DNA of 64,000 nt from Arthrobacter globiformis. Lineage in GTDB: Bacteria > Actinomycetota > Actinomycetes > Actinomycetales > Micrococcaceae. This document shows positions 5,380 to 37,774 of the stretch, in pieces. How positions within the stretch are numbered: the first letter of the stretch is position 1; each line of letters starts with the position of its first letter. Both the position numbers and the translations under genes were made by a program. The notes below the pieces were generated by a model, which was given only the letters and a program-made list of their open reading frames with translations, did no database searches and was not told where the DNA came from. Where the stretch lies: the NCBI RefSeq assembly GCF_030815865.1, contig NZ_JAUSXI010000001.1:1550001-1614000 (forward strand), written 5' to 3'.

Positions 5380-5382
5380 CTC

Positions 5383-14497: not shown

Positions 14498-14498
14498 T

Positions 14499-14987: not shown

Positions 14988-15066
14988 TCCGCTGATCGAG
15001 CTTGTCGAGATCCGAGGCGCTTGGTTTCGACAGGCTCAACCAGCGGCGACCGCTGCTCAACCGGCG
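14953..15066. repeat. Dispersed palindromic repeat between convergent genes
   Basis: Two right arms (GGTTTCGACAGGCTCAACCA), a CGCTGATCGAGCTTGTCGAG left arm, and a partial CTGCTCAACCGGCGG that overlaps the stop codon of the convergent DJ-1 gene. Confidence 0.92.
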
Positions 15067-15791
15067 GTTGTTTCGCCTGCCAATTCGGTGTCTTCGACGA
15101 GGGCCTTGATAACCTCCTTGGCCACGTCCTCGCTGGACTGCGGGTTCTGGCCGCTGATTAGGTTGCCCTCGCGCACCACGTGGCTTGCCCAGTCCGGGCC
15201 GGTTTCCACGTTGGCGCCCTTGTCCCGCAGCGCCGTTTCAACGAACCACGGCGTGTTCTCTCCCGTGCCGCCGCCCAGTTCCTCCGAGTTGGCGAACACT
15301 GTCAGCTTGCGGCCCGCGAAGGCGAACGCGCCGTCGTCGGCCGTGGCACTGAGCAGGCCCGCCGGGCCGTGGCAGAAGGGGGCGATGATCTTGCCTACGC
15401 CGTTGGCTTCCACGAGGATCCGGCCCAGATCCTTGTCCTGGAAGAGGTCCGCCATGGGGCCGTGGCCGCCCGGCAGGACCACTGCGTCGTACCCGGACAT
15501 GTCGACGTCGGCCAGCACTAGCGGTGCGAAGAGGTCGACGTCGATCATCTCCAGATAGGTGCGGAAGTCTTCCGCCCTTTCCTCACTGCCAACGGCGTCT
15601 GCCTGCAGGCTGATCTTGTCCACGGTGGGCTTGACACCGCCGGGAGTGGCGAAGTCCACGTTGTGCCCGGCCTGCTGCAGGGTCCGGTGTGCCACCACCA
15701 GCTCCTCCGCCCAGAATCCGGTGGGGTGCTGGCTGTTATCCTTCATGGTCAGCGAATCGGCCGCCGAGACGACCATCAGAATGTTAGCCAT
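15057..15791 (-). CDS. DJ-1/PfpI (class I glutamine amidotransferase-like) protein
   Basis: 244 residues starting at ATG 15791 with AAGGAGCAAGG upstream. The fold is shown by MANILMVVSAADSL, the TPTGFWAEELVVAH-like motif HPTGFWAEELVVAHRTLQQAG, VVLPGGHGPMADLFQDKD and the nucleophile elbow IAPFCHGPAGLL with the catalytic Cys. This matches the Hsp31/YhbO-like subgroup (glyoxalase III or protein deglycase-type chaperones) active in carbonyl stress in the cytoplasm. The end, TTAG followed by TGA, lies inside a dispersed repeat: GCCGGTTGA of the repeat provides the stop codon. Confidence 0.9.
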   Translation of the reverse strand: MANILMVVSAADSLTMKDNSQHPTGFWAEELVVAHRTLQQAGHNVDFATPGGVKPTVDKISLQADAVGSEERAEDFRTYLEMIDVDLFAPLVLADVDMSGYDAVVLPGGHGPMADLFQDKDLGRILVEANGVGKIIAPFCHGPAGLLSATADDGAFAFAGRKLTVFANSEELGGGTGENTPWFVETALRDKGANVETGPDWASHVVREGNLISGQNPQSSEDVAKEVIKALVEDTELAGETTAG

Positions 15792-15817
15792 TGTCCTTGC
15801 TCCTTATGTGGTTTCTT

Positions 15818-15897
15818 GGTTTCGACAGTGGTCGCTGATCGAGCTTGTCGAGATCTCGCGTGACCGGGGTTTCTGGTTGCGACAGGCTCAACCAGCA
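15818..15897. repeat. Dispersed palindromic repeat overlapping the cfa stop
   Basis: Contains GGTTTCGACA, CGCTGATCGAGCTTGTCGAG and a right arm GACAGGCTCAACCAGCAG. TCA at 15888-15890 inside this arm is the complement of the cfa stop codon. Confidence 0.92.
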
Positions 15898-17177
15898 GTC
15901 CATTCCCTCAGCCGCAGCGGAGGTTCCTGGCCGCCCGGCTTCTGCACCAGCACCTGGTTCACGCCGGTCAGGCCGCCTTCGAAGCCGAGTGCGCTGGATG
16001 CCATGTATAGGCGCCAGATGCGGGCGCGGCCGTCAGTTGTGAGCCGCACGGCCTCGTCCCAGTTCTCCTCCAGGTTCTTGACCCATGCGCGGAGCGTCAG
16101 GGCGTAGTGCCGGCGGAGGGCTTCGACGTCGAGCACCTCGAAGCCGCCGCCCTCCAGCGCCGTCATCAGTTCCGAGAGGCTGAGCATCTGGCCGTCGGGG
16201 AAGACGTAGCGGGGGATGAAGGAATCGGGGTCGTCCTCCGTGGGCCCGGCGTTCCAGGAGATGGCGTGGTTGAGCAGCCGCCCGCCGGGCCGCAACAGAC
16301 CGTGCAGCTGCGAGACGTAGCGGTCCAGCTGTTCGCGGCCCACATGCTCTGACATGCCGATGGAGCTGATCGCGTCGTACGGCCCGTCGTCGATGTCGCG
16401 GTAGTCCTGGACGCGGATGTCCACTCGGTCCGTCAGTCCGGCCTCGGCGACCCGCTTGCGGACCAGCTCGGCCTGTTCCGTGGAAATCGTGATTCCGACA
16501 ACGTGCACGCCGTACCGCTCGGCGGCGTGCAGGGCAAAGCTGCCCCAGCCGCAGCCAACGTCCAGCAGGCGCTGCCCCGGCTGCAGGCCCAGCTTGCGGC
16601 AGACCAGATCGAGCTTCTCCTCCTGGGCTTCTTCCAGGCTTCGGCTTTCATCGGACCAGACTGCGCAGGAATACACCATCGACGGGCCGAGGACCAGCCG
16701 GTAGAAGTCGTTGCCGACGTCGTAGTGGTGTGAGATCGCGGCGGCGTCCCGCTTCTTGGAGTGCCTGCGGCCGTGCTTTTCCACCTTCGCTTCCTCCGGC
16801 GGGGGAGCGGGGTGGGGGCCCAGCGCGCCGAGACGGATGCCGGTTTTCAGCAGCGTCCAGAGTTCCCGCGGCGTCGGCGGGCTGAATGGGCCTGGTTCGG
16901 CGAACTTGCCGGCGGAGCTCAGGGCGGCGAAGGCCTCGAAGATGTCGCCGTGTGCGGTGATTTCACCGGCGACGTACGCCCGGCTCAGGCCCAGCTGCCC
17001 TGGCGACCAGAGGATCCGCCGCAATGCCCGTCGGGATGTGAACTCGATCAGCGGCGCATCAGGGGGGCCCGCTTCGGAGCCGTCCCATGCCCGCAGCCGG
17101 ACGGGGATTTCCTCGGTACCCAGGACGATGCCCAACGCCGTGGCTAGTCTTGGTGCCGCTCCGGTCGTCTTTGCCAT
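15888..17177 (-). CDS. cfa: Cyclopropane-fatty-acyl-phospholipid synthase family methyltransferase
   Basis: 429 residues. Typical CFA-synthase features are present: HHYDVGNDFYRLVLGPSMVYSCAVW, SAM motif I LLDVGCGWGSFALHAAERYG, GITISTEQAELVRKRV, SIGMSEHVG and the late RRHYALTLRAWVKNLEENWD. The enzyme transfers a methylene from SAM to unsaturated phospholipid acyl chains at the membrane. GAGAGG lies eight bases before ATG 17177. The final residues WTAG and the stop arise within a dispersed repeat (GCTGGTTGA), so the ancestral C-terminus was altered or trimmed by repeat insertion. Confidence 0.94.
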   Translation of the reverse strand: MAKTTGAAPRLATALGIVLGTEEIPVRLRAWDGSEAGPPDAPLIEFTSRRALRRILWSPGQLGLSRAYVAGEITAHGDIFEAFAALSSAGKFAEPGPFSPPTPRELWTLLKTGIRLGALGPHPAPPPEEAKVEKHGRRHSKKRDAAAISHHYDVGNDFYRLVLGPSMVYSCAVWSDESRSLEEAQEEKLDLVCRKLGLQPGQRLLDVGCGWGSFALHAAERYGVHVVGITISTEQAELVRKRVAEAGLTDRVDIRVQDYRDIDDGPYDAISSIGMSEHVGREQLDRYVSQLHGLLRPGGRLLNHAISWNAGPTEDDPDSFIPRYVFPDGQMLSLSELMTALEGGGFEVLDVEALRRHYALTLRAWVKNLEENWDEAVRLTTDGRARIWRLYMASSALGFEGGLTGVNQVLVQKPGGQEPPLRLREWTAG

Positions 17178-17517
17178 CCTCGTTGCCTCTCGTCGGGTGC
17201 CCCAGTTCGACGGTCTGCGCCATTACAGTCCCGTGGCAATAACGTACACAAGCCTGCCTGCACCGGACAGTGAGACAAACTTGTCTCGTTGTGTCCGCCC
17301 GGTGTGGCTGGGGCTAGATTCCGTCCCGCTCCACGAATTCGCCGGAACCCTGCCCGGTACGCCGGAAGTTTCCGGCGCCCTCGATACGTTTCGGCGAACT
17401 CGGCCCAACCTGAGAGGTCCCCGGCGGCGCTGGCCCGAATTTCTCCACTCTGGACCGGCAATCCGGGCGGTGGGATGCTGATCGCACATACCGTCGGAGA
17501 GGGAGGCTGATATCGCC
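17178..17517. other. Divergent intergenic region upstream of cfa
   Basis: 340 bases with no convincing gene. It must hold promoters for cfa and for the membrane protein at 17518; I could not assign -10/-35 boxes reliably. Confidence 0.5.
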
Positions 17518-17985
17518 ATGGACGACTCGCCGGAGACGCGCCAACGGCTGTCCGACCGCATCGAAGAGAAGCAGTCAGCACTCCGCTCCTACCTGGAACG
17601 GCTGCGGCCGCGCCGGCACAAGCTGACGGAATTCAGCGTCGCCGGGAGCGTGCTGGCCGCCATGCTCACAGCTGGTCCGGCGTTCGGAGGCACAGGATTC
17701 ACCGCATCGGTCCAGGGCATATTCTCCCTGGACGACGCTTCCGTGGTGTGGCGGGTCCTTTGCTTGGGAGCGGTGATTCTGTCCGTCGGGGCCGGGCTCG
17801 CCACGAACTTTGCCAATTCCCAGGCTTTGGCCGAAAAGGTCACAGCAGCGGAGACAGCAATCGCGCAACTGGAGGGGCTGCAGCTGTCCCTGGGCTTCGG
17901 CCACATAGCGATTGACGAAGCAATGATGCTGTACAAACAGTTTGTCTCCCACGTTCCGTTCGTGGCGGAGGTGCCGTCCCGCTGA
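17518..17985 (+). CDS. Two-helix membrane protein of unknown function
   Basis: 155 residues from ATG 17518, with GGGAGG 12 bases upstream. A charged N-terminal helix (ETRQRLSDRIEEKQSALRSY) precedes two membrane helices at about residues 40-58 and 78-98 (WRVLCLGAVILSVGAGLAT). A helical cytoplasmic tail follows (ALAEKVTAAETAIAQLEGLQ). This layout, an SLATT-like or coiled-coil-flanked helical hairpin, is known for membrane sensors and pores, but no family is assigned. It is monocistronic, followed by a hairpin. Confidence 0.7.
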   Translation: MDDSPETRQRLSDRIEEKQSALRSYLERLRPRRHKLTEFSVAGSVLAAMLTAGPAFGGTGFTASVQGIFSLDDASVVWRVLCLGAVILSVGAGLATNFANSQALAEKVTAAETAIAQLEGLQLSLGFGHIAIDEAMMLYKQFVSHVPFVAEVPSR

Positions 17986-18014
17986 GCTGTCCTTTTAAGG
18001 AACGCACGACGGCG

Positions 18015-18040
18015 GGTGGCTGGCAGGAATGCCAGCCACC
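18015..18040 (+). terminator. Hairpin terminator
   Basis: 11-bp perfect stem GGTGGCTGGCA around GGAA, 30 bases after the preceding stop; no T-run. Confidence 0.7.
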
Positions 18041-18137
18041 GCCATCCGCCGGCTAAGCAAAGCAGCGGCTGCCCGTCATCGCGCTGCTTCACTCAGTTCA
18101 CCCCGCCGTCGCTAGCCCGTAACCCGGGCCGTCAAAC

Positions 18138-19778
18138 ATGGGCCCCATGACTGCTCTCTCCCGCCGTAACGTCCTCAAAGGTGCCATCGCCGCTGCCGGT
18201 GCCGCCGCCGTCGCCCCTTCACTGGTTGTCCCAGCGCACGCGGCCGGCCCCGCCGCGGTTCCCCTGGTCCGCAACCGCCTGACCCTCCCGTCCGGCATAT
18301 CCACAGGCGACGTCACCACCAACTCCGGCGTCCTGTGGTCGCGTGCGTCAGGCGCGGGCCGGATGGTGGCTAACCTGCTGGCGGTGGACGAGGACGGGTC
18401 CCCGCTCCGCGGCAGCCGCGCCTTCCGGCGGGTCCTGCGCGGCACCACCGCCAGCGACGCCACCGACTTCACCTCGAAGATCCACGCGCGCGACCTCCCC
18501 TCGGGAACCCAGTTCGCGCTCACCATGCACTTCGAGGACCCGGACGGCAACGCCGGCGACGCCGCCCGCGGCTCATTCAGCACCGCCCCCGGTTCGAAGG
18601 CCAACAGCCGCTGGTCCCGCAGCGGCGGGACCGAGCGCGGCCAGAGCTTCGTCTGGACCGGGGACACTGCAGGCCAGGGGTGGGGCATCAATGAGGACAT
18701 CGGCGGCATGCGCGGGTACGCGGCCATGCTTGCCATCAAGCCGGACTTCTTCATTCACTCGGGCGACACCATCTACGCTGACGGCCCCATCGCCGCCCAG
18801 GTCATCGAGCCCGACGGTCAGATCTGGCGCAACCTGGTCACCGAGGAGGTCTCCAAGGTGGCCGAAACCCTTGAGGAGTACCGCGGCCGGCACCGCTACA
18901 ACCTCATGGACAAGAACATCCGCGCCCTCTACGCCGAGGTCCCGGTCATTGCCCAGTGGGACGACCACGAAACCACCAACAACTGGTACCCCGGCGAAAT
19001 CCTCACCGACTCCCGCTACACCGAGCGCCGCGTGGACGTCCTCGCCGCCCGCGGCCGCCAGGCCTGGCAGGAATACCAGCCCATCGCCCAGCTCAGCGAC
19101 GGCAGCACCGGATTCGAACCGGCCCGCATTTACCGCAAGATTTCCCGCGGCCCGCAACTGGACGTCTTCTGCCTGGACATGCGCACCTTCAAGGACCCCA
19201 GCACCGACGGCAAGGAAACGCGCCTCACCCACATCCTCGGCCAAGAGCAGGCCGACTGGCTCATCCGTGAGGTCAGCAAGTCCAGAGCCACCTGGAAGGT
19301 GATCTCCGCCGACCTCCCGCTCGGCATCATCGTCCCGGACGGGCCGGCAGCCCAGGAATCCCTCGCCAACCACGACGCCGGTGCCCCGTTGGGCAAGGAG
19401 CTCGAGATCGCGCGCGTGCTGTCCGCGTTCAAGCGCAACCGGGTTAAAAACGTGGTGTGGCTCACCGCGGATGTGCACTACTGCGCCGCCCACCACTACT
19501 CGCCCGAGCGTGCCGCCTTCCAGGACTTCGACCCCTTCTGGGAGTTCGTCGGTGGCCCCATCAACGCCGGAAGCTTCGGTCCCAACCAGATGGACGGCAC
19601 GTTCGGTCCGGAAGTGGTCTTCTCCCGGGCCGGCGCCTACGCGGGCGAGTCCCCGCGCAGCGGCGAAAGCCAGTACTTCGGCCACGTGGACCTTGGCGAG
19701 GACGACGTCTTCTCCGTCACCCTCCGCAACGCCAACGGCATGGTGATCTTCCGCAAGGACCTGAACCCGGAGCGCTGA
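18138..19778 (+). CDS. phoD: PhoD-type alkaline phosphatase/phosphodiesterase, Tat-exported
   Basis: 546 residues. The N-terminus LSRRNVLKGAIAAAGAAAVA is a Tat signal (RRNVLK), so the folded enzyme is exported. An N-terminal Ig-like domain (about 45-155) precedes the metallophosphoesterase domain with HSGDTIYADGP, WDDHETTNNWYPGE, VISADLPLGIIV and LTADVHYCAAHHYSPER, which hold the Fe/Ca ligands of PhoD. It hydrolyses phosphodiesters and monoesters outside the cell to release phosphate. ATG 18138 or 18147 may be the start; neither has a strong ribosome site. No Pho box was identified. Confidence 0.94.
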   Translation: MGPMTALSRRNVLKGAIAAAGAAAVAPSLVVPAHAAGPAAVPLVRNRLTLPSGISTGDVTTNSGVLWSRASGAGRMVANLLAVDEDGSPLRGSRAFRRVLRGTTASDATDFTSKIHARDLPSGTQFALTMHFEDPDGNAGDAARGSFSTAPGSKANSRWSRSGGTERGQSFVWTGDTAGQGWGINEDIGGMRGYAAMLAIKPDFFIHSGDTIYADGPIAAQVIEPDGQIWRNLVTEEVSKVAETLEEYRGRHRYNLMDKNIRALYAEVPVIAQWDDHETTNNWYPGEILTDSRYTERRVDVLAARGRQAWQEYQPIAQLSDGSTGFEPARIYRKISRGPQLDVFCLDMRTFKDPSTDGKETRLTHILGQEQADWLIREVSKSRATWKVISADLPLGIIVPDGPAAQESLANHDAGAPLGKELEIARVLSAFKRNRVKNVVWLTADVHYCAAHHYSPERAAFQDFDPFWEFVGGPINAGSFGPNQMDGTFGPEVVFSRAGAYAGESPRSGESQYFGHVDLGEDDVFSVTLRNANGMVIFRKDLNPER

Positions 19779-19803
19779 GCGCGCTCCACCGGCGGCGCCC
19801 GGC

Positions 19804-20157
19804 TCAGTCGACGGTAACATCGGGCTGCTCTACGGTGCCGGGAGGCTGGTACTTGATCTGCGCGGCCTGCCGCATTGCGTCCATCGTTTCCTCGACCGTC
19901 AGGAGCACCGTGGTTTCAAATGAGCCCAGCGCTCCGCCTCCGCTGATTGCCAGTGCTACCGCCGCCATGGACACGTTATCCGGAGCCTCCCAGAGGTTGT
20001 AGCCGTCGTGGGTCCCGAAGGCGTACCAAAATCCGTGGAGCTTCCCGCCGACCGATTCGATGTAGGCCTGTGCGGCCTTTCGACGGTCTTCCGGGTTGCT
20101 GATCAGCCTTGCCCACGTTTCCCGGGTGTAGCTGAACCTAGACAGATAGAGGGGCAT
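19804..20157 (-). CDS. GYD domain protein
   Basis: 117 residues from ATG 20157, preceded by GAAAGG. The sequence MPLYLSRFSYTRETWARLI, ESVGGKLHGFWYAFGTHDGYNLWEAPDNVSMAAVALAIS shows the GYD signature (here HDGYNLWE), a small alpha/beta ferredoxin-like domain. Such proteins are widespread and mostly uncharacterised. It is convergent with phoD (26-bp spacing) and divergent from the small gene at 20302. Confidence 0.85.
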   Translation of the reverse strand: MPLYLSRFSYTRETWARLISNPEDRRKAAQAYIESVGGKLHGFWYAFGTHDGYNLWEAPDNVSMAAVALAISGGGALGSFETTVLLTVEETMDAMRQAAQIKYQPPGTVEQPDVTVD

Positions 20158-20301
20158 GGTCGCGCCTTTCGTTCGCCGTCGGAAGCGGGATTCACCCAGA
20201 ATGGCAGGCTGCGCTGCGGCCAGCAACGGCCAAATTTCTCGCCAGCGGGGGTGCGGTTCAGACGGGTAGTCACCCGGCCCGTCCGGTGGGAGGATTCCAA
20301 T

Positions 20302-20574
20302 ATGAGCGAGTTCCTTCCGGACCATGGCCCGCACCTGCACGCACACGCGGCACCCACGACCCAGCAAATGCGCACCGTTGGCCAGCGCCGCCGGGATGCC
20401 GAAGAGAAACTGGAACAGCATCTTCAGGAAGCCCGCCACAAGGACCATCCACAAAACGATGAGCCGCTCACACAGGCTGGCGGTCCGACGGCGGACGGCC
20501 AGGGCGTTGCAGGTGCCCAGGAGGGCGGCGGACTGCCCGCCGGAGAAGGTGTGGATCCGAACCCGGGGCGGTAG
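20302..20574 (+). CDS. Small hydrophilic protein
   Basis: 90 residues from ATG 20302; GGGAGGA lies eight bases upstream and decides this start. The N-terminus is His-rich (DHGPHLHAHAAP), followed by a helical RQRRRDAEEKLEQHLQEARH-type segment and a Gly/Pro/Asp-rich, probably disordered tail. No signal or membrane segment. Not recognised. A partial 55-bp repeat follows the stop. Confidence 0.6.
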   Translation: MSEFLPDHGPHLHAHAAPTTQQMRTVGQRRRDAEEKLEQHLQEARHKDHPQNDEPLTQAGGPTADGQGVAGAQEGGGLPAGEGVDPNPGR

Positions 20575-20577
20575 GTT

Positions 20578-20646
20578 TCCCTCCCCACCGGCGCCCTAAC
20601 CTCGCAAGCTCGGCCAGGGGACCCAGCCGGCGTGGGTCCAAGCTCA
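20578..20646. repeat. Diverged copy of the 55-bp repeat plus a repeat arm
   Basis: CCCTAACCTCGCAAGCTCGG and CCGGCGTGGGTCCAA match the 55-bp unit found three times at 58692-58856; GCTCAACCACCGG at the end resembles a truncated arm of the main dispersed repeat. The rest of 20647-20815 holds only the promoter region of the next gene. Confidence 0.75.
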
Positions 20647-20815
20647 ACCACCGGGGCGGGCTGTCAACGGTCTTTTCGTGGGCAGAATGATGCGTGTCAC
20701 ATTTCGGTCGAGGACGTAATCCGGCATCTCCTCTGCAAAAATGGCGATGTCATGTGCGGGAGGTCACAAGCAACGGCGCTTGAGGCCTCCCGCGCAATGC
20801 CCTGGGGAGGCAAGG

Positions 20816-21943
20816 ATGTCAGGAATCAGTTTTACGGCCATCGACTTCGAAACGGCCAACAGCCACCGCGGCTCGGCATGCGCCGTCGGCCTGGTGAAGG
20901 TCCGGGACGGGCACATCGTGGACACGGCGTCGTGGCTCATCAAGCCGCCGCCCGGCGTCGACGACTTTGATCCCATCAACGTGGAGCTCCACGGCATCGC
21001 CGAACCGGACGTCCAGAACGCCGCCGACTGGGAGATGTCCCTCGAGGGCATTCTGCAGTTCGTCTCCGAGGATCCGATCGTGGCTTTCGATGCCGCCTAC
21101 GACGCCTCCGTAATGCGCAAAGCCACCGAGCACCAGCATCTGGACCTGCCAGCCAAGGACTTCTACTGCGCGCTGCACCTCGCGGAAGACCACCTGACCC
21201 TCCCGCGGCACCGCCTCAGCGACGTGCTGGCCGCGCTGGATCTTCCGCCCGTTGAGCGCCACGAACCGCGGTCCCACGCACTGGCCTGCGCCCAGATAGT
21301 GCTCGCCATCGCTGCCACACGCGGACTCACCACTCTGGCCGAGATCTGGGAAGGGCCGACGACGGCGGTCGGCAAGCGCCGCCGTGGCCGGCGCGTCCGC
21401 ACCGACGCCGACCCTGAGGCTGAATCACCCAGCGCCACACCTGGGGGACCGGATGCCGCTGAGGGGCGTGATGAGCACGGGGGACCGGGCGAGCCCGACG
21501 CCAACCTCGCTGTGGTGGTGCCAGACGCCGTTCCGCACCTGATTGCCGACGGCGGCGGCACCGCTGAGGCCGGCACCGCTGAGGCCGGCAGGGTTGAGGC
21601 CGGGACCGCTGAGGCCGGCAGCGCTGACCTGCTGCAGCTGAGCCGGACCGAGGTTGAGCGCCCCGACTTTGAGCGCTCTGACATTGACCGCATTGAACCG
21701 GACGCGACTGCCAAACCGAGAGCCGCGAAGCGCGCCTTCAGCACCGCAGCGGGACTGGTGCTGTTCGCGCTGGGTGTGGCGGCCGCCGTCGGGCTCGCCT
21801 ACCTCACGGGACTCACCATCCGGTACTTCGCCGCCGGCCAGGCCGTCACAGCGGCACTCACACTCGCCGCAGCCGCGGCCACCATGTGGGCGATCTGGGC
21901 AAGCATCACCCGCGGCTGGCACCGGCTCCGCCCCGGCAACTGA
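20816..21943 (+). CDS. Membrane-anchored DnaQ-like exonuclease domain protein with altered active site
   Basis: 375 residues from ATG 20816 (GGGGAGG six bases upstream). Residues 5-165 form a DnaQ-like 3'-5' exonuclease fold with Exo I intact (FTAIDFETANSHRGS). The Exo II region reads IVAFDAAYDASVM, where active relatives have AHNAxFD. The expected Exo III HxAxxD reads SHALACA, with Cys in the Asp position, so catalysis is doubtful. Residues 185-300 are acidic, low-complexity linker with GTAEAG-type repeats. Two membrane helices near the C-terminus (about 305-325 and 335-360) tether it. A nucleic-acid-binding role without cleavage is possible. Confidence 0.8.
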   Translation: MSGISFTAIDFETANSHRGSACAVGLVKVRDGHIVDTASWLIKPPPGVDDFDPINVELHGIAEPDVQNAADWEMSLEGILQFVSEDPIVAFDAAYDASVMRKATEHQHLDLPAKDFYCALHLAEDHLTLPRHRLSDVLAALDLPPVERHEPRSHALACAQIVLAIAATRGLTTLAEIWEGPTTAVGKRRRGRRVRTDADPEAESPSATPGGPDAAEGRDEHGGPGEPDANLAVVVPDAVPHLIADGGGTAEAGTAEAGRVEAGTAEAGSADLLQLSRTEVERPDFERSDIDRIEPDATAKPRAAKRAFSTAAGLVLFALGVAAAVGLAYLTGLTIRYFAAGQAVTAALTLAAAAATMWAIWASITRGWHRLRPGN

Positions 21944-22076
21944 CCTGCCGCGTCTCCGGCCTGCCGCCGCGGGTTCATTCTTCCCGTCTGCGAGAATGCT
22001 CGTGACCGGGGACGGGCGCGGTATCGGCTCCGCCCCCAGCTCATCGAGGCCTCGCGGCCGGGGAAGGCGGACACTC

Positions 22077-22832
22077 ATGCCCATGTGGGCCCAGGCACTG
22101 TTTTGGGGAACTCTGGCCGGCGGAGCGCTGGTTCTCGGCTCGGGACTGTCCTGGAAATGGAACATCCCCGCCAAGCTTGTCTCCTCGATCATGGCGTTCG
22201 GCGCCGGCGTGCTCATCTCCGCGCTGGCGTTCGAACTCGTGGACGAGGCTGTGCAGGGCGGGGGACTCTGGCCCACGGTCCTCGGCTTCCTTGCCGGCGC
22301 GGTAGTCTACGTTGGCGCCAACGCGTTGCTGGCCCGCTCCGGAGCCAGACACCGGAAGCGCTCCAAGGACCAGCAGCCCTCCGAAAAGGACGAGCCGGGC
22401 AGCGGCACGGCCATCGCCGTCGGGGCACTCCTGGACGGCATCCCTGAATCGGTGGTCCTCGGCCTGGGCCTCGTCACTGCAGGAACGGTGAGCCCGGCCA
22501 TGCTCGCCGCCGTCTTCATCTCGAACGTCCCGGAAGGGCTGTCCAGCACGGCAGGCATGAAGAAGGCCGGGCGCGGCGCCAAATACGTCTTCGGCGTTTG
22601 GGGCGGCATCGCCCTGCTCTGCGGGCTCGCGTCGCTGATCGGCTACACGGCGCTGGAAACCGCGCCCGACAGCGTGGTCGCCTTCATCACCGCCGTCGCC
22701 GCCGGCGGTATCCTCGCCATGCTCGCGGACACGATGATCCCCGAGGCCTTCGAGGAGCACCACAACCTCACCGGCCTGGTGGCCGCCGTGGGCTTCCTCT
22801 CCGCCTTCACCATCCACCACGTTGGCGGCTAG
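22077..22832 (+). CDS. ZIP-family metal transporter
   Basis: 251 residues from ATG 22077. Several membrane helices with SIMAFGAGVLISALAFELVDEA, a short variable charged loop (ARHRKRSKDQQPSEKDE), and the ZIP core motifs VGALLDGIPESVVLGLGLV and FISNVPEGLSSTAGMKKAG, where the Asp/Glu/Asn residues bind divalent metal. Usual ZIP histidines are replaced by acidic/Asn positions. It would bring metal (Zn, Fe, Mn class) into the cytoplasm. It is paralogous to 50253-51044, with the same DG-PE and SN-PE motifs. Confidence 0.88.
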   Translation: MPMWAQALFWGTLAGGALVLGSGLSWKWNIPAKLVSSIMAFGAGVLISALAFELVDEAVQGGGLWPTVLGFLAGAVVYVGANALLARSGARHRKRSKDQQPSEKDEPGSGTAIAVGALLDGIPESVVLGLGLVTAGTVSPAMLAAVFISNVPEGLSSTAGMKKAGRGAKYVFGVWGGIALLCGLASLIGYTALETAPDSVVAFITAVAAGGILAMLADTMIPEAFEEHHNLTGLVAAVGFLSAFTIHHVGG

Positions 22833-22913
22833 CTGGTGACCCCGACGACGGGTGGCCGGCGACGCTGGCGTCCACCCGCCGTCGAGCTTTAACGGCCGGT
22901 CCGAACGGACCGG

Positions 22914-25262
22914 TCAGACAGCCGTGACCGTGACAGTCCTGGTGGCGAGAACCTTCGACGTGATCCAGTGCAGGAACTGGACGCTGATAATGTACTTGCC
23001 GGGAGCCGGAGGGCGCAGCAGAAAGTCGAACTTTTCCGCGGCACCGGATTTGATGGTGTTGGTCAGGAGCGGCTGGCCCGCGATCGACGGCTGCACCGCG
23101 GGGCCCGTGGGCCTGGGGGTGGTCCAGAAGGGCCGTCCGTCGTGAGCGACCAGCTCGGCGATCCTGGCTGGCCTGCCCGCCGCGTCCGTGATCGTGGTCA
23201 GTGTGGGGAAGTAATCGACGTTCACCATGCGGATCAGCGTCGGATACTTGCCGTTCCGAACAACGTTGGCCCGCATCTGGGAGACGGCCCAGACTCTGTC
23301 GTCGCCTCTTGGCCGGCTGGGGATGTTGCCGCCGAGGAGGAAGAAGTGCTTGGGCTCGAAGCGGTTCAGCCCGGCATCCTCACCGTTGAGCCCCGCCGCA
23401 TGGTTCAGTTCATGCCACCGCGGATCGAGGGAGTAGGGCGCAAGCAGGGTTTCCGTGGCGATGTCATAGAGCGGACCTTCAAAGGTGTGGCGGCGTGTCC
23501 CTGCCGGTGCGGGCATAACTGGATTGGCCGGAGGGTCGACGACGATCGCGCCGAACATGCCCATCTGGACGTGGAGCGGGGTGTTGACGTGGCAGTGGTA
23601 GAAGTAGGTTCCCGCCGAGCCGCGGTTGGGGTTGCCGCGTTCGGCAACGTCCGCCCTCCACTGGTACGTGTAGTGCCCCGTGACCTCGAAGGACGTATGT
23701 CCCACGCCGTCGTTCCGCGGGTCCGGTTCGATGCCATGCCAGTGGATGGTGTGCACCCTCTGGCTGGGCTTGATGGTCGCCTGGAACAGTTGCCCCTCCT
23801 GCATCCGCACCGTGGTCCCGGGGATCTGGCGGCCCAATTTGTTGCCCTCGAAGCTCCACATCTCATGCTCGGAGCCGTCAGGGAACGTGAACTTTCTGTT
23901 GAAGAAGTCCATCTCGACGAACACGTCAGGCTTCAGGGCAAACTCGGTTTCCGGGCTGCCCTCATGGGGCTGGTCCGACGAGAAGTCCACCTGGCTCCTG
24001 AAGGTGTGGTGTGAATCTTCGGCCGTAGGCGGCGTCCCTTGCGCCGGGGCGGGCTGAGCGGCCAGCACCCAGTCCGCCACCATCCCACCGGGGTATAGCC
24101 CGCCGCGCGCGGTCTGGGACGGCTCTGCATGGCAGTGCATGGGGTAGGTCCAGTCCTCTGTCCTCGCGTTCCATACCTGATCGATCACCTCCGGCGGCCG
24201 CCTGACCGGAAGTATGGCCTCCTTGCGTTCCAGCGGCTGCAGCTGGACGGTGTCCTCCCACTGCTGGAGTTGCACTTCGCCCTGGGCAGATACCCGGCCG
24301 TTGGACCTTGGAAAGTCGATGCCGTTCGCGCGGACGGTCCACACATGGTTGCCGTGGTAGTGGAGCTGGTGGTCCGCGATGCCGGCATTGAGCATCCGCA
24401 TGAGGTGCCCGGTGCGGATGGCCCCGGCTGACGGGGAGGCGCTGAAGTTGCGCACATCCGTCTCGCGGGGGTGGCCTGAAGGAAGCGTGTCCTGATGCCG
24501 CCGCTCGTTGAACTCCAGATCATCGGTGACGGCCAGCGACTGGAACCCGGCGAACCCGTTGAGTGTGAAATAGTTCGGAACCGCCGGAACGGCCAGCGGA
24601 TCCACCGTCTGCCCTCTCGAGGCGATGCGGGCCCAGTTGGAGTCCACGTCATGGCACAGCCACAGCCACTGGCGTTCGAACTCCGCGGCGCCCGGGGCCA
24701 GCCGCCAGGCATTGCGCGGGTCGATCACCACCAGGGCCCCGTACAGGCCAAGTGTTCTTTCCACGGGCTGGTTGCCCGGGTCGGTGTAGACGTAGGTCCC
24801 GGGCAGGGGCGCCGGAAACCGCAGCAGCTTCGATTTTCCCGGCGCGACCGGTCCAGAGCCGACGTCGGCCCCGCCCGGTCCGGCACTATGGAACCGCATC
24901 TCGTGCGGCTGCGCGAGGTTGTTATGCACCATGATTTCGATGGTGCTCCCGGTCTCCGCTATCAACGTCCGGGGCGGAAAGAAGCTGGCCCAATACCCCC
25001 GCCGGGCAAGGATCTGCCGGGGGAATGCCGGGTCCGGCCGCAACGGCGCGGGCCTCCCATGCGGCGGCACAGGAGCGCCCAGCGGGTACGTCCTGCTGGC
25101 AACCACCCGTCCGTTGGCGGTGATGACCCTCGGGCTCATGGCCACCGCCGGGTTCGGATCGTTTAATGCCGTGCGGCGTTCCCCGAAGCCACGGTGGTAG
25201 ACCAGTGATCCGTCCACCATAGGAACGAATCCGTCGTTGATGTGGATGTCCAGAATAGCCAC
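22914..25262 (-). CDS. Large multicopper oxidase without an export signal
   Basis: 782 residues in several cupredoxin domains. Copper ligands are visible as HYHGNHVW (about 302), MHCHAE (about 374), HTIHWHGIEPD (about 502) and YHCHVNTPLHVQMGMFG (about 552), the last being the type 1 copper region. The enzyme should oxidise a metal or phenolic substrate with O2. The N-terminus MAILDIHINDGFVPMVDGSL has no Tat or Sec signal, unusual for this family, and GGAGGT lies 11 bases before ATG 25262, so a missed upstream signal is unlikely. A terminal domain (residues about 660-782) is also cupredoxin-like. Confidence 0.88.
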   Translation of the reverse strand: MAILDIHINDGFVPMVDGSLVYHRGFGERRTALNDPNPAVAMSPRVITANGRVVASRTYPLGAPVPPHGRPAPLRPDPAFPRQILARRGYWASFFPPRTLIAETGSTIEIMVHNNLAQPHEMRFHSAGPGGADVGSGPVAPGKSKLLRFPAPLPGTYVYTDPGNQPVERTLGLYGALVVIDPRNAWRLAPGAAEFERQWLWLCHDVDSNWARIASRGQTVDPLAVPAVPNYFTLNGFAGFQSLAVTDDLEFNERRHQDTLPSGHPRETDVRNFSASPSAGAIRTGHLMRMLNAGIADHQLHYHGNHVWTVRANGIDFPRSNGRVSAQGEVQLQQWEDTVQLQPLERKEAILPVRRPPEVIDQVWNARTEDWTYPMHCHAEPSQTARGGLYPGGMVADWVLAAQPAPAQGTPPTAEDSHHTFRSQVDFSSDQPHEGSPETEFALKPDVFVEMDFFNRKFTFPDGSEHEMWSFEGNKLGRQIPGTTVRMQEGQLFQATIKPSQRVHTIHWHGIEPDPRNDGVGHTSFEVTGHYTYQWRADVAERGNPNRGSAGTYFYHCHVNTPLHVQMGMFGAIVVDPPANPVMPAPAGTRRHTFEGPLYDIATETLLAPYSLDPRWHELNHAAGLNGEDAGLNRFEPKHFFLLGGNIPSRPRGDDRVWAVSQMRANVVRNGKYPTLIRMVNVDYFPTLTTITDAAGRPARIAELVAHDGRPFWTTPRPTGPAVQPSIAGQPLLTNTIKSGAAEKFDFLLRPPAPGKYIISVQFLHWITSKVLATRTVTVTAV

Positions 25263-25441
25263 GCCCGACCTCCCAGTGTGCTGGGGACCGGAGCTAAATT
25301 GAAATGCAAGTCCACGTTCGCCCCCAATTGCGCTTTCAGACTGCCCCCATGGTTATGGCTGGAGCCTAGGGAAAGCTTGGGACCGCCGCCGACAAGGCTC
25401 ATGTCCTTACATGGGCCGCACCGGCGGCGCTGTTCACGCCC

Positions 25442-27238: not shown

Positions 27239-27337
27239 TTTGGCTCCTCTGAGGCATGCACATTGATCCGCCGTTTCTGCTTCAGCGATAACGGATCTCT
27301 GCCCATAGCGGCCAGCGATCTACCTGAAATTTATGCG

Positions 27338-27355
27338 AGACAGACTGTTCTGTCT
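27338..27355. promoter_or_regulatory. 7-bp palindrome upstream of the rrn operon
   Basis: AGACAGA and TCTGTCT around CTGT. It resembles a TetR-type operator or a short hairpin; no regulator can be linked to it. Confidence 0.35.
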
Positions 27356-27511
27356 AGTTGAGCCGGTCACACGCAGACCATTGTCCGGGACTTCGCTACC
27401 GGAGGGTACGCCAGGGCTCTGTCGGGTGCATCTGGTGGTGCCTGAAACTGACTGGGCTCGTTGCGATCCCGCCCTGGGCTAGCAGGGAAGGCTGCACCTC
27501 GGGGGCCCGAT

Positions 27512-27540
27512 TTGCGCGGGCCTCGGGGGCCGTGTAGAGT
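27512..27540 (+). promoter_or_regulatory. Probable rrn promoter
   Basis: TTGCGC, a 17-base spacer, then TAGAGT, a good sigma-70-type match about 400 bases before the 16S gene. The wider 27239-27937 region holds no credible ORF. Confidence 0.65.
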
Positions 27541-27762
27541 CTTTCGAGTCGCCGCCGCTGAAGCGGAAAGATAGCGACCGACCCCCTTTCTAACAGCCTG
27601 AAAATGGCGCACTGAACTGTGTGCCGCGGACGGGCCGGGGACCTTCCTGCAAGCGGAAATCGCGGAAACGCTGGTTTGCAAAGCTTCGCCGGACCGGGTA
27701 AGTTTGAAAAGTTGCTCCGGAGCGATCCTGAACGGAAGTTTGGGTGGTGCCGGGTGTGTCTG

Positions 27763-27780
27763 TTGTTTGAGAACTCAATA
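27763..27780 (+). promoter_or_regulatory. Antitermination/processing element in the rrn leader
   Basis: TTGTTTGAGAACTCAATA, a conserved actinobacterial rrn leader sequence. A second copy, TTGTTTGAGAACTACATAG, is at 29842-29860 before 23S, as expected for rRNA antitermination (boxA-like) or RNase III processing sites. Confidence 0.6.
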
Positions 27781-27937
27781 GTGTGCCAAGTTTGTTGATA
27801 CCGATTTTTTATTAAATTGGTTGAATTTGCCGGGCCTGCCACCTCCGTGGTGTGGTCTGGTGTTTTTGGCTGGTTTCAAATTTTGTGCAGCCTGGTTCCG
27901 CGTTATTTCCGTGGTGCCTGGTTGTGTCTGTTTTACT

Positions 27938-33122
<5,185 letters not shown>

Positions 33123-33355
33123 CACACACTCTTCTTCGTGAACGGATTCAAAAGACGTTCACACCAGGGGGAGAGTAAAAAGAAACAAGACTGCTTGCGT
33201 CCACTATGTGGTTCCCAACCAACAAACCCGCCACCGGGTTTCACGGTCCAGGAAACCAACAACTCAATAACAACACCACAGCTGCAACAACCTGCAGCAA
33301 CGTGTGTAACCACAAGTTTTCCCACCCCGGCACACACCGGGGCACGGGACACAGG

Positions 33356-33475
33356 GTTACGGCGGTCATAGCGTGGGGGAAACGCCCGGTCCCATTCCGA
33401 ACCCGGAAGCTAAGACCCACAGCGCCGATGGTACTGCACCCGGGAGGGTGTGGGAGAGTAGGTCACCGCCGGACA
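33356..33475 (+). rRNA. rrf: 5S ribosomal RNA
   Basis: GTTACGGCGGTCATAGCGTG to CACCGCCGGACA, about 120 nt. It contains CCGAACCCGGAAGCTAAG and GGTACTGCACCCGGGAGG, standard 5S helices and loops. It completes a single rrn operon. Confidence 0.96.
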
Positions 33476-33493
33476 ACCATTAGAAAAACGGTC

Positions 33494-33525
33494 GAGAGCC
33501 CCAACCAGTCATGGTTGGGGCTCTC
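33494..33525 (+). terminator. rrn operon terminator
   Basis: 14-bp perfect stem GAGAGCCCCAACCA around a GTCA loop, shortly after 5S. Confidence 0.9.
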
Positions 33526-33563
33526 CCGCATTTAACCCGCCAGGCGATCCCGCCCCAGGCGCC

Positions 33564-33588
33564 GGGTTTCGACAGGCTCAACCAACGG
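33564..33588. repeat. Single arm of the dispersed repeat after the rrn operon
   Basis: GGTTTCGACAGGCTCAACCA, 38 bases beyond the rrn terminator. Confidence 0.85.
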
Positions 33589-33741
33589 ACCTTCCCCCAA
33601 CCCTCCCGAGTTCGGCTTGAAGGTGATGGAGCGCCCCGTCCCGGTATTCGGCCCGCTAGGGGAACATGTCCAGGCCGGGCACCGTTGTATGTGGGGAACC
33701 GTGTCATGGATCAGCGGGTCAACCCCAACAAAGGACACCTT

Positions 33742-34596
33742 ATGCCCCAGCGCACCATCGTCATCACCGGCGCCAGCGACGGCGTCGGGGCAGCAGCCGC
33801 GCGGAACCTGGCCCGGGCAGGTGAGCGGATCGTCGTCGTCGGGCGTTCCCCGGAGAAGACTGCAGCGGTGGGTTCGGAACTGGGCGTTGACTATTTCGTC
33901 TGTGACTTCGCGGAGCTGGCGCAGGTGCGCGACCTAGCCTTGGCGCTGCGGGCGAGGTACCCGCTAATTGATGTTTTGGTGAACAACGCCGGCGGGATCA
34001 TGCGCGGCCACGAGCTGACGGCGGACGGCCATGAGAAGACTTTCCAGGTCAACCACCTGGCGCCGTTCCTGCTCACGACCGAGCTGCTGGACATTCTCAC
34101 TGCCAGCCGTGCCACCGTCATCAATACCTCGAGTGCTGCCAACGGATTCGGGCGCCTGGATCTGACGGATCTCAACTCAGAGCGGAGCTACTCGACAAAC
34201 CGCGCTTATGGCACCGCGAAACTCGCGAACATCCTGTTTACCGCCGAACTGCAGAACCGCTACGGGAAGGACGGCATTGCGGTGGCCGCCTTCCACCCCG
34301 GCGTCGTGGCGACCAACTTCGCCGCGGAGTCCACGAGCTGGTTCCGCCATGCCTACAAGACTGTCCTAAACCGGTTCCTGTTCTCGGCCGAGCAGGGCGC
34401 CGACACGCTCGTCTGGCTCGCTACTTCCACGCCCGGACGGGACTGGTTGTCTGGCGCCTTTTACGTCAAGCGTGCGCTGGCGAAGGCCAACAGGCAGGCC
34501 TACGACGCCGGGCTGGCGAGGGACTTCTGGGACCGCAGCCTGGAGCTTGTCAGTGCAGGCGAGCCGGCGGCCACGTCCGAACTCGACAACGCCTGA
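33742..34596 (+). CDS. Short-chain dehydrogenase/reductase
   Basis: 284 residues from ATG 33742; AAAGGA lies eight bases upstream and decides this start. SDR features: TGASDGVGAAAARNL (cofactor TGxxxGxG), DVLVNNAGGIM, catalytic Ser in INTSSAANGFG, and YGTAKLANILF containing the YxxxK pair. The C-terminal part (HPGVVATNFAAES) matches retinol dehydrogenase/WW-domain oxidoreductase-like SDRs. A basic residue after the first strand (VVGRSPEKT) favours NADPH. Substrate unknown; cytoplasmic. Confidence 0.92.
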   Translation: MPQRTIVITGASDGVGAAAARNLARAGERIVVVGRSPEKTAAVGSELGVDYFVCDFAELAQVRDLALALRARYPLIDVLVNNAGGIMRGHELTADGHEKTFQVNHLAPFLLTTELLDILTASRATVINTSSAANGFGRLDLTDLNSERSYSTNRAYGTAKLANILFTAELQNRYGKDGIAVAAFHPGVVATNFAAESTSWFRHAYKTVLNRFLFSAEQGADTLVWLATSTPGRDWLSGAFYVKRALAKANRQAYDAGLARDFWDRSLELVSAGEPAATSELDNA

Positions 34597-34623
34597 GATG
34601 CGCTGGTCCCATAGGGACGGGAT

Positions 34624-34909
34624 TCAGCCCTCGCAGCCTACGCCGTCACTGTTGCTGTCCAGGCGGTAAATGTCCGAACCAGTGACGGTCACGGGCCCTT
34701 GAAGTCAACGCAAGTGTGCTGGGTGACGGAGTAGCTGAGGCCGCGGCGGCTTTGGCCGCAATCACACTGCCGCTGGCCGCCTGGCCATTTCCGCACCCTG
34801 TGACTACCAGCAACAGAAGACTGAGTACAGCAAGCCCCCGGCCGCGGCGCCGCTTGATTGAAGCAGCGAGAATCGCCTCATTGCGCCCCATCGACTGGTT
34901 CGTAGTCAT
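34624..34909 (-). pseudogene. Lipoprotein with excalibur-type calcium-binding tail, frameshifted
   Basis: ATG 34909 (GGGGAAA upstream) opens MTTNQSMGRNEAILAASIK, then RRRGRGLAVLSLLLLVVTGC, a lipoprotein signal with lipobox VTGC. After an Ala/Ser/Pro linker, meaningful coding moves to other frames: TCVDFKGP in one and VTVTGSDIYRLDSNSDGVGC followed by EG and TGA 34624 in another. The tail DSNSDGVGCEG is an excalibur-type DxDxDGxGCE motif. Two small indels near 34690-34725 would restore one continuous protein of about 95 residues. It is either a decayed gene or a local sequencing error. Confidence 0.6.
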
Positions 34910-34996
34910 ATTTCCCCTAGGTCCAAGTACAGGTCTCCTGCCTAATGAGGGCACAGCAAAAAGTTCCCCTCAGGAAGGGCCCTGCGGGAGGGTCTG

Positions 34997-35094
34997 GGTG
35001 CAAGCGGCGAAAGGTGAGGGAAGGTTTGGGTTTAGGCAGCGAAAGGTGAGGGAGGGTTTCGGTTTTAGGCGGCGAAAGGTGAGGGACCGTTTGA
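34997..35094. repeat. Three tandem 32-33 bp repeats
   Basis: GCGGCGAAAGGTGAGGGA recurs at 35004, 35036 (GCAGCG variant) and 35069 with T/G-rich spacers, ending three bases from the stop of the GGDEF/EAL gene. Confidence 0.85.
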
Positions 35095-35096
35095 AA

Positions 35097-37250
35097 TCAG
35101 CGGCGGAGGCGAAGTCCCTCAAGCGCCTGAAGCGCCTCGGCTGAGCGGCTGATGGCCTGATCGAGGGCGGCCTCGGATTCAGGTACCGAGAACAGATAGC
35201 CCTGCAGCGCGTCGCACTGCAGGTCCGTCAGGTAGGCGGCCTGCTCGGCAGTTTCGATGCCCTCCGCGGTGACGCTGAGCCCGAGGCTGTGGGCCATATT
35301 GATCATGGAGCTGAGGATGGGCAGCTTCTCCGCCCCGGTGCGGACCATGGAGACAAAGGACTGGTCGATCTTCACCGCGTCCACGGGCAGGTCCTGAAGC
35401 CGGCCCAGGGACGAGTAGCCGGTGCCGAAATCATCGAGCGCAACCCGCACCCCGGCGCTGCGCAGGCTCGCGAGCTGGCTGATCACGTGGTCGTCGGCGT
35501 CGAAAAAGACGCTCTCCGTCACCTCCAGCACCAGCTGCCTGGGATCCATGCCGTGGGATTCGGCCATGGCCAGCACATTGCCGGCGAAATCGCGGTCCCG
35601 CAGCTGCACGCCGGACACGTTGACCGCCAATGAACGATCAGCGCCGCCGGTAAGCCAGGGCCCCAGCTGGATGAAACTTTCCCGCATCATTTGCAGGCCG
35701 ATCACCGAGATCAGACCGCTGCGCTCCGCCGTCGGAATGAACTGCGACGGCGGGACATTCCTGCCGTCGCGCTCCCACCGGGCCAGGGCCTCGAACTGGA
35801 TCACCTCTCCCAGCCGCGGCGAAACAACCGGCTGGTAACTCACACGGATCTCGTCGTTATCGACGGCGAGCCGCAGCCCCGCCTCCATGTCCGTCCGCTG
35901 CACCAGGGCCGTCATCATCTCCGGCCTGAACCGCATGTACCGGTTCTTGCCGGCGGCTTTGGCCGCGTACATCGCCACATCCGCGCGACGCAGTAGCTCC
36001 GACGCAGCCACCGCGTCCGCGCATAGCGACGCGATCCCCAGGCTCAGGCTGGGCCGCAGCATGGTCCCTTCGATCCACACCGGAACATTGAGCGACTGCA
36101 CGATGCGCTCCGCGACGGACTCGGCATCCACAGATCCGGTCAGGAGCACGACGAACTCGTCACCGCCCAGCCGGGCCACAGTGTCATCCGGCCGGACGCA
36201 GGCCCTCAGCCGGCGGGCCACCTCCACCAGCATCTGGTCTCCGGCGGCGTGGCCCAGAATGTCGTTGACCTCCTTGAAGTCGTCCAGGTCGAGGAGGAGA
36301 ACGTCGACGGCGGTACTACTGCGGCCGTGCAGCGCTTCGGACAGTTGGTCATGGAACAGCTTGCGGTTTGCCAGCCCGGTGAGCGGATCCTGAAACGCCA
36401 TGGCTTTCAGCTGCTCTGCCTGTTCGGCCAGATCCGCCATCGCTTGCCGGGCCTGTTCCTGGGCCCGGCGCCGCGGCGTGACATCCCGGAAGCTCCAGAC
36501 CCTGCCCACCACCAAGTTGCCCACCCGCTGTGGCCGTGAGTAGCGTTCGAACGTGCGGCCGTCGAGGAACTCCAACGTGTCGTGGCTTTCGGCGGTCGGG
36601 TGCGCGTACAGTTCGTTGACCTTGTCCAGGAAGCTCTCGGGGTGCGCAAGGAGGCCCACCACGAAATCAATCACGGCCGCGTCGTCGCCCGCGGCCATAA
36701 GCTCACGGGGGATGCCCCACATCTTCGTGAACTGCTCGTTGATGCCGGCGATCTTTCCGTCGACACCGACCACCAGGATCCCGTCAGCCGTCGACTCCAG
36801 GGTGGCGCTGAGCAGCGACATCGCCTCCCGCAGCTCGGCGTCGGCCTCCTGCCGGTGAAACGTGGCCCGGACTGATGCGACCAGGGATGCGCCGCCGTCG
36901 GAATCCAGCAGCGAGCAGGCCACCTCGCCGTGGAACTCGGTGCCGTCGCTGCGCAGGCCGTAGGACTCGAAGGGGGTCTGCGGGGCCGAGCTGTCTCCGG
37001 ACTCCCGATCGCTGCGCAGGCTGGCGAAGAGGCGGTCGAATCCGCTGCGGTAGCCCTCGGCGAGGAGCATGCGGTGATCCTGGCCCACCAGGTGAAGCCT
37101 GCCGTAGCCGAAGAGCCGTTCGGCGGCGGCGTTGACCTGTGCGATCACGCCGTCGCTGCCGACCACCAGAACCGCGTCCGGCAGGGAATCGAACAGGGCG
37201 GCGTAGCTGCCGGCTGGAATCCCCTCAGGGCGTGGGGAAGCCGCCGTCAT
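35097..37250 (-). CDS. PAS-PAS-GGDEF-EAL cyclic-di-GMP protein
   Basis: 717 residues from ATG 37250. An in-frame extension upstream is repeat DNA and is discarded, though no strong ribosome site precedes 37250. Two PAS domains (about 12-130 and 140-270; VLVVGSDGVIAQVNAAAERLFGYG, ILVVGVDGKIAGINEQF) precede a GGDEF domain with intact RLGGDEF and an RPDD inhibitory I-site five residues before it. The EAL domain (about 455-705) has FEALARWE, EVTESVF, DDFGTGYSSL, KIDQSFV and TAEGIET, all needed for phosphodiesterase activity. It may both make and hydrolyse c-di-GMP. No membrane helix, so it senses a cytoplasmic signal. Confidence 0.93.
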   Translation of the reverse strand: MTAASPRPEGIPAGSYAALFDSLPDAVLVVGSDGVIAQVNAAAERLFGYGRLHLVGQDHRMLLAEGYRSGFDRLFASLRSDRESGDSSAPQTPFESYGLRSDGTEFHGEVACSLLDSDGGASLVASVRATFHRQEADAELREAMSLLSATLESTADGILVVGVDGKIAGINEQFTKMWGIPRELMAAGDDAAVIDFVVGLLAHPESFLDKVNELYAHPTAESHDTLEFLDGRTFERYSRPQRVGNLVVGRVWSFRDVTPRRRAQEQARQAMADLAEQAEQLKAMAFQDPLTGLANRKLFHDQLSEALHGRSSTAVDVLLLDLDDFKEVNDILGHAAGDQMLVEVARRLRACVRPDDTVARLGGDEFVVLLTGSVDAESVAERIVQSLNVPVWIEGTMLRPSLSLGIASLCADAVAASELLRRADVAMYAAKAAGKNRYMRFRPEMMTALVQRTDMEAGLRLAVDNDEIRVSYQPVVSPRLGEVIQFEALARWERDGRNVPPSQFIPTAERSGLISVIGLQMMRESFIQLGPWLTGGADRSLAVNVSGVQLRDRDFAGNVLAMAESHGMDPRQLVLEVTESVFFDADDHVISQLASLRSAGVRVALDDFGTGYSSLGRLQDLPVDAVKIDQSFVSMVRTGAEKLPILSSMINMAHSLGLSVTAEGIETAEQAAYLTDLQCDALQGYLFSVPESEAALDQAISRSAEALQALEGLRLRR

Positions 37251-37311
37251 GCGACCGTTGCGTGAGACCGCGAAAAACTCATTGAGCGTCCACCCCCTCA
37301 GCAAGATCGTA

Positions 37312-37774
37312 CCGCTGATCGAGCTTGTTGAGATCAAGGTCCGGCGGAGACCCGCTGATCGAGCTTGTCGAGATCGAAGGTTCAACCGGCGGACACCCCG
37401 CTGATCGAGCTTGTCGAGATCGAAGGCTCAACCAGCGGACACCCGCTGATCGAGCTTGTCGAGATCAAGATCCGGCGGAGGTCCTTGGTTTCGGCAGGCT
37501 CAACCAGCGGAGCCGGCTCAACCGGCGGACACCCCGCTGATCGAGCTTGTCGAGATCGAAGGCTCAACCAGCGGACACCCGCTGATCGAGCTTGTCGAGA
37601 TCAAGATCCGGCGGAGGTCCTTGGTTTCGGCAGGCTCAACCAGCGGAGCCGGCTCAACCGGCGGACACCCCGCTGATCGAGCTTGTCGAGATCAAGATCC
37701 GGCGGAGGTCCTTGGTTTCGGCAGGCTCAACCAGCGGACCCAGGCTCAACCAGCGAACCCAACTCAACCAGCGG
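37312..37774. repeat. Second large cluster of the dispersed palindromic repeat
   Basis: Alternating GCTGATCGAGCTTGTCGAGA and TTTCGGCAGGCTCAACCAGC arms, with a higher-order unit of roughly 130 bp repeated (for example 37441-37570 and 37578-37690). The cluster spans the gap between the GGDEF/EAL gene and ugd and supplies the ugd stop codon at 37764-37766. Confidence 0.93.

Follow-up and report, generated by a model that had tools for sequence, protein, structure and literature searches.

Palindromic repeat at the 3' ends of genes

The 64,000-nucleotide (nt) stretch of DNA analyzed here (hereafter, the window; positions 1,550,001 to 1,614,000 of contig NZ_JAUSXI010000001.1) is part of a single-contig Arthrobacter genome of 5,110,334 bases (hereafter, the focal genome) and harbors a short palindromic repeat that repeatedly lies at or across the stop codons of protein-coding genes. 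The window contains 52 matches to the repeat motif GCYGGTTGAGC with at most one mismatch, where 4.87 are expected, and none of 100 shuffled sequences reached 52.

A preliminary description of the window had pointed to three genes with stop codons that are part of the repeat and with proteins that end with AG, and this is borne out by the coordinates; all three are on the minus strand. The cyclopropane-fatty-acid-synthase-like gene cfa (15888..17177; family matches under the cut-off) ends with WTAG (here and below, C-termini are given up to the stop), and its stop codon (15888-15890) is located inside a minus-strand motif match (15886-15896) in the right arm of an arm pair (15832..15898). The DJ-1/PfpI-type gene (15057..15791; families also under the cut-off) ends with TELAGETTAG, 11 residues longer than its counterpart in the closest relative, and a partial minus-strand arm (15055..15067; motif match 15055-15065) spans its stop codon (15057-15059). 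Finally, the nucleotide sugar dehydrogenase gene ugd (37764..39146) ends with GHVSAG, with the stop codon (37764-37766) contained in a partial minus-strand arm (37762..37772). The partial arms at DJ-1 and ugd are missed by the arm scan (20-nt arm, at most three mismatches).

The additional contacts between the repeat and gene ends that had been described are also confirmed. An array of 31 arms, about 12 of which are in a 65-bp tandem (4428..5379), ends 3 nt after the stop codon (TAA, 5383-5385) of a minus-strand open reading frame (ORF) for 618 amino acids without an NCBIfam match (5383..7239), and a five-arm array (8417..8528) lies 5 nt after the stop of a minus-strand regulator-like gene (8534..9556; NanR/PdhR-type families, all under curated cut-offs) with the C-terminus GLH. 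In the small conserved plus-strand ORF 14688..14987, an arm encodes the VSTGSTSG portion of the tail AVSTGSTSGDR, and the stop lies within a CCGCTGATC stretch; a three-arm array (14958..15046) is located between this ORF and the DJ-1 gene.

Structure, abundance and distribution of the repeat

The repeat unit is an arm of about 24 nt (CCGSYGRTYGAGCYTGTCGAAACC), and the arms are half-palindromes. Arm 1 is GGTTTCGACARGCTCAACCAGCGG; its core, TCGACARGCTCRAYC, recurs in the inverse of arm 2 (CCGCTGATCGAGCTTGTCGAGATC). The focal genome contains 172 exact cores (89 on the plus strand and 83 on the minus strand) in 71 clusters, and 0 matches to the reversed-pattern control. Arms occur singly, as head-to-head pairs of about 50 nt, and in tandem arrays of up to 31 arms. 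Folding energies are -32.2 to -33.5 kcal/mol (z -6.9 to -7.4) for three typed head-to-head pairs, two of which are idealized sequences and not direct copies. Folding is weak for a CCACC-type single arm (-14.6 kcal/mol, z -3.4) and not significant for a CCAGC-type single arm (z +0.7). Repetitive extragenic palindromic (REP) elements have a GTRG foot beside the palindrome; some arms carry GTGG.

Across the genus, exact 20-nt arms are present in 21 of 61 genomes, with 1 to 126 copies each, and the remaining 40 have none. On a one-gene tree of 30 genomes, a repeat-rich label (at least 9 exact arms; 11 of 30 rows) requires 7 changes, of which at least 5 are forced by well-supported branches. A single origin by descent was considered and rejected: 49 of 500 shuffles are as low as 7 changes, so that the label is patchy, at most weakly clustered.

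The focal genome has no match to a Y1 transposase. The only ones among the 61 genomes of the genus, two in G042, are IS200/IS605-like by eye, and one of them adjoins an ORF that, again by eye, we take to be TnpB-like; a REP-associated transposase was therefore rejected as the mover. A 94-nt piece of an array had no match in the plasmid collection, and a gathering-score Rfam search of window positions 1-40000 returned 16S, 23S and 5S rRNA genes only. Intrinsic terminators were tried as an explanation and rejected, with one terminator-like site in window positions 4300-16000 and none at an arm. No paper on the repeat DNA or the peptide strings was found within a limited literature collection.

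Position relative to genes

Four species were compared: the focal genome, its closest relative G002, G004 and G005. In the stretches of the focal genome that were covered, 82 arrays were present, of which 60 lie between two called genes, 20 lie inside called genes and were handled separately, and two were dropped, with no called gene on one side. The arrays between genes are distributed non-randomly, in agreement with the preliminary description. Indeed, 43 of the 60 are within 15 nt of a stop codon, compared to a mean of 27.9 and a maximum of 38 in 2000 trials of a shift control, in which each array was slid inside its own gap; only 3 are within 15 nt of a start. In the second control, random noncoding 20-mers are near a stop in 10.0% and near a start in 10.2% of the cases at the same distance. 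When only arrays with both flanking genes scoring at least 40 are counted, 34 of 43 are near a stop.

The types of gaps show the same bias. Codirectional gaps hold 36 arrays, convergent gaps 24 and divergent gaps 0, compared to 15 divergent gaps among 96 control gaps, holding 21% of the control noncoding bases; within the codirectional gaps, the stop is the nearer gene end for 33 of the 36 arrays. In G005, 12 of 18 arrays are near a stop (shift mean 9.2, maximum 14), and the codirectional arrays favor the stop 7 to 1; the respective values for G002 are 9 of 21 (shift mean 5.3, maximum 11) and 14 to 2.

Single arms are, in addition, oriented. Among those within 30 nt of a stop in the four species, the CCGC end points toward the stop in 18 of 21 and away in 3; the focal genome and G002 together account for 17 toward and 0 away, the sucC site entering both counts.

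Related species hold both filled and empty sites, as exemplified by the three-arm array at window positions 7542..7636, at which G002 has an empty site, by L090, and by sites in G002 (C15 near 352614) and G004 (C5 near 7000). In the few such sites viewed by eye, there is no consistent target-site duplication. Separately, two paralogous loci of the focal genome, L086 and L091, which we take to be gcvT-like, both have an arm 7-8 nt past the stop, and a G005 relative has one at 9 nt.

Supply of stop codons and divergence of C-termini

Read along the gene, the arm makes TGA available in two registers, CCGC-TGA-TYGAGC and CCGCTGGT-TGA-GC, and the third frame reads through as PVVEPVET; from the other strand, the consensus is stop-free in all frames and is mostly used as STGSTTG. 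The CCGC-TGA register, in which the protein ends with xR, terminates six genes of the focal genome (L084, L092, L095, L117, L119 and L120), with TAA replacing the TGA of the arm in L095. The GCTGGT-TGA register, in which the protein ends with xAG, terminates cfa, a glycosidase-like gene (L096), DJ-1 and ugd. At sucC (L092), G002 is identical, the arm included. Altogether, 84 stop codons of the focal genome face an intergenic array; the array overlaps 10 of these, and the other 74 precede it. In-frame back-up stops are not enriched: they are present in 21 of the 79 arms located 1-40 nt past a stop, against 24.0 expected.

The nearest named relatives, judged by the cfa gene, are A. globiformis and A. 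pascens. The cfa product ends with WLAG in G002 and with WTAG in A. globiformis, in both cases with TAA in an arm-like stretch (4 mismatches in A. globiformis). The DJ-1 gene ends with ALVE, without an arm, in G002; with ALAE and an arm 6 nt downstream in A. globiformis; and with NGG in A. pascens, the TGA being inside a 3-mismatch arm. The orthologs of ORF 14688 end with GMSD (G002), GMGG (A. globiformis) and GMGD (A. pascens), compared to GMGTAVSTGSTSGDR in the focal genome. For ugd, GHVSAG is shared by the focal genome and G002; in G038, arms encode STSSTSG followed by a stop in the other register, and the G046 tail is partly encoded by a 3-mismatch arm. Elsewhere, 26 of 30 ugd loci have different tails, 25 of them without a nearby arm; in the remaining one, an arm with 4 mismatches follows the stop at a distance of 66 nt. 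Among the matches listed, orthologs of the gene at 8534 end with GLH in several cases, with and without arms, and in others with a one-residue variant, and gcvP ends with FEISTSSITGLEG in the focal genome, AFEN in G002 and FEVSTGSTTGSTGSTTGSEG in G005.

According to the preliminary description, arm-free orthologs with identical C-termini would refute its proposal of either insertion targeted to gene 3' ends or selection for copies that end reading frames. Such orthologs exist for some genes (LGD at L090 and in G002; GLH at the gene at 8534), and WTAG in A. globiformis comes close to this situation at cfa; at DJ-1, ORF 14688 and gcvP, the C-terminus differs from that of the arm-free relative.

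Coding copies

Many arms lie in coding sequence. Under the criterion of at most two mismatches and location wholly within called genes scoring at least 40, 88 of the 446 arms in the four species are coding, in 39 genes. The frame used is PVVEPVET in 56 cases and STGSTTG in 19, with 6, 5, 1 and 1 in the other four. By location, 49 coding arms are separated by more than 40 codons from either end of the gene and 17 are within 40 codons of the stop. By the same criteria, 32 of 268 arms of the focal genome are wholly inside genes; hence, the repeat is not strictly extragenic, as REP elements are. Where arrays lie well inside genes, the 29 comparisons of length across species all yield multiples of three, including all 21 non-zero ones; for intergenic arrays, the three classes hold 38, 28 and 17 comparisons.

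The genes affected are diverse. In the focal genome, coding arms are present in E2-type acyltransferases (L103 and L118; families under curated cut-offs), in a MazG-like gene (L100; family under the cut-off) with counterparts of its locus in G002, G004 and G005, and in PaaB; additional cases are ribosomal protein L17 in G005 and a PAPS-reductase-domain protein in G004. The Lhr helicase contains nine in-frame arms in G005 (L223:1161-6254) and three in G002 (C11:189115-194229). Among the 120 PaaB relatives listed (P0001-P0120), a strict pattern matches the two peptides in 29 and 42, and a looser pattern matches either in 77.

Several of these genes show further peculiarities. The arms of the Lhr helicase lie within or beside the WH2_Lhr domain. 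The MazG-like gene (L100:3360-4181) contains about 10 in-frame PLVERT units adjoining one arm, and the lengths of the locus in G002, G004 and G005 differ by multiples of three. A different pair of peptides, PTDSPASQARPGTPVG and GVPGRAREAGESVG, is found in the N-terminal tails of 6 of the 120 PaaB relatives and resembles a further repeat that is translated from either strand. A DUF4194 gene of G005 (L218:2198-3319) contains 12 coding arms; the DUF4194 region of the focal genome (19800-20688, L081) was called as two overlapping genes, possibly because of a frameshift at the repeat.

Additional copies in the window

The gene at 10058-11461 is followed, 9 nt past its stop, by a head-to-head arm pair (11471..11527), and a ten-arm array (37312..37737) is located between ugd and the gene at 35097. 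A single plus-strand arm (33569..33588) follows, at a distance of 94 nt, the 5S gene of an rRNA operon (16S, 23S and 5S; 27938-33474). Another arm pair (39195..39236) is in the C-terminal coding part of a minus-strand glycosyltransferase gene (39143-40384), where it encodes PLVEPVET.

Discussion

In the focal genome, copies of the repeat crowd into the 15 nt or so that follow stop codons, with the CCGC end of single arms toward the gene, and where a copy overlaps the end of an ORF or lies within one, the frame determines whether it acts as a new stop, as a tail or as a linker. Inside genes, the two peptides PVVEPVET and STGSTTG form linkers and tails. We consider it likely that the element is palindromic, non-autonomous and REP-like, and that its copies settle mainly at the 3' ends of genes and in other places that tolerate them, with the supply of stop codons as a by-product. 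Selection would purge the copies that break a protein, and stop supply would follow from landing on the stop region without being the function of the element. Given the tight position behind stops, the supply of stops, and the translated tails and linkers, this appears to be a spreading repeat that reshapes the ends of ordinary proteins.

Several observations weigh against this interpretation. The gene ends come from a dicodon-model gene caller trained on the same DNA with the repeat masked, not from annotation. The three other species agree less well with the pattern, the excess above the shift control being small or absent; in particular, G004 shows no excess, with 8 of 18 arrays near a stop against a shift mean of 8.4 and a codirectional ratio of 7 to 5, and single arms in G004 and G005 together point toward the stop once and away three times. 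No Y1_Tnp match, that is, no candidate mover, was found in the focal genome. At cfa, the TAA within the arm-like stretch of both G002 and A. globiformis shows that this stretch predates the TGA found there in the focal genome. Among the 88 coding arms, 22 are within 40 codons of a called start, which is possibly misplaced, and the 29 in-gene length comparisons derive from few genes, with both directions counted.

A more far-reaching possibility, which we put forward only tentatively, is that the arm is a landing-safe, dual-coded element, with a sequence shaped either to stop within a few codons or to add an inert acidic or Ser/Thr-rich peptide (PVVEPVET or STGSTTG), and would thus keep providing unrelated Arthrobacter and Pseudarthrobacter proteins with disordered tails and linkers.

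Two other explanations, each of which we regard as rather unlikely, address the position itself. The first is targeted insertion, suggested in the preliminary description, whereby an enzyme would recognize a feature of the gene 3' end and insert the arm with a fixed polarity. The tight distances, the uniform polarity of single arms in the focal genome and G002, and the copies directly behind stops in G002 and G004 at sites that are empty in relatives all speak for such targeting, although clustering at stops could also come from selective retention. Against it, no enzyme was found in the focal genome or the 61 genomes of the genus, there is no conserved spacer between stop and arm by eye, and the polarity is missing in G004 and G005, where single arms are few. 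The second is pure tolerance, that is, random insertion with survival where a copy is least harmful, closeness to stops merely reflecting short 3' gaps filled by arrays. Tolerance accounts for the scarcity of copies near starts and in divergent gaps, G004 fits it, and, since the gaps are filled by their arrays, the shift control alone reaches 27.9 of 60; however, it fails to explain why the focal genome exceeds the maximum of that control and why single arms are polarized.

Somewhat less probable is retention of the arm for a role in the 3' untranslated region (UTR), such as ribosome stalling, shaping of the mRNA 3' end or ending of transcription. The position and the hairpin formed by pairs resemble those of Escherichia coli REPs, of which 446 of 4,072 are within 15 nt of a stop, with those reported to stall ribosomes (PMC12306157). 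However, lone CCAGC-type arms sit at stops without a significant fold, no arm at window positions 4300-16000 falls on a terminator-like site, and 40 of the 61 genomes lack arms altogether. Selection for termination, that is, retention of copies for supplying or backing up stops, as also suggested in the preliminary description, is highly improbable: an arm ends ten genes of the focal genome and L095 holds TAA at the position of the arm's TGA, but back-up stops are not in excess, most facing stops precede the array, and coding arms mostly use stop-free frames.

The REP-like, non-autonomous element that we favor can be compared with several known systems. Mycobacterial interspersed repetitive units (MIRUs), also found in actinobacteria, lie at junctions between stops and starts, to which they contribute a stop or a start codon; they are longer and not palindromic. 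REPs and the clusters they form, bacterial interspersed mosaic elements (BIMEs), in E. coli and other bacteria are likewise short, many-copy palindromes, single or clustered and partly within 15 nt of stops (PMC12306157); in contrast, no REP-associated transposase was found here, and about one in five arms (88 of 446) is coding. The Rickettsia palindromic elements insert in frame into unrelated genes and yield a recurring peptide (PMC10969869), resembling the in-frame copies in 39 genes, the two main peptides and the lengths in multiples of three observed here; those elements, however, are about 150 bp long, whereas the present repeat belongs to a free-living actinobacterium, lies mostly at stops, and has as its unit an arm of 24 nt or a pair of some 50 nt. 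The same source places QMITE2 of Coxiella burnetii, about 190 bp long with terminal inverted and direct repeats, mainly in 3' UTRs; the 3' position is common to both elements, whereas terminal inverted or direct repeats are not established for the present one.

In this free-living actinobacterium, a short palindromic repeat can alter where and how proteins end, one element serving as stop, tail or linker according to the frame. With 0 to 126 exact arms among the genomes of the genus, targeting and tolerance can be directly tested against each other, and pairs of species show DJ-1, ugd, gcvP and MazG-like proteins in natural before and after states.

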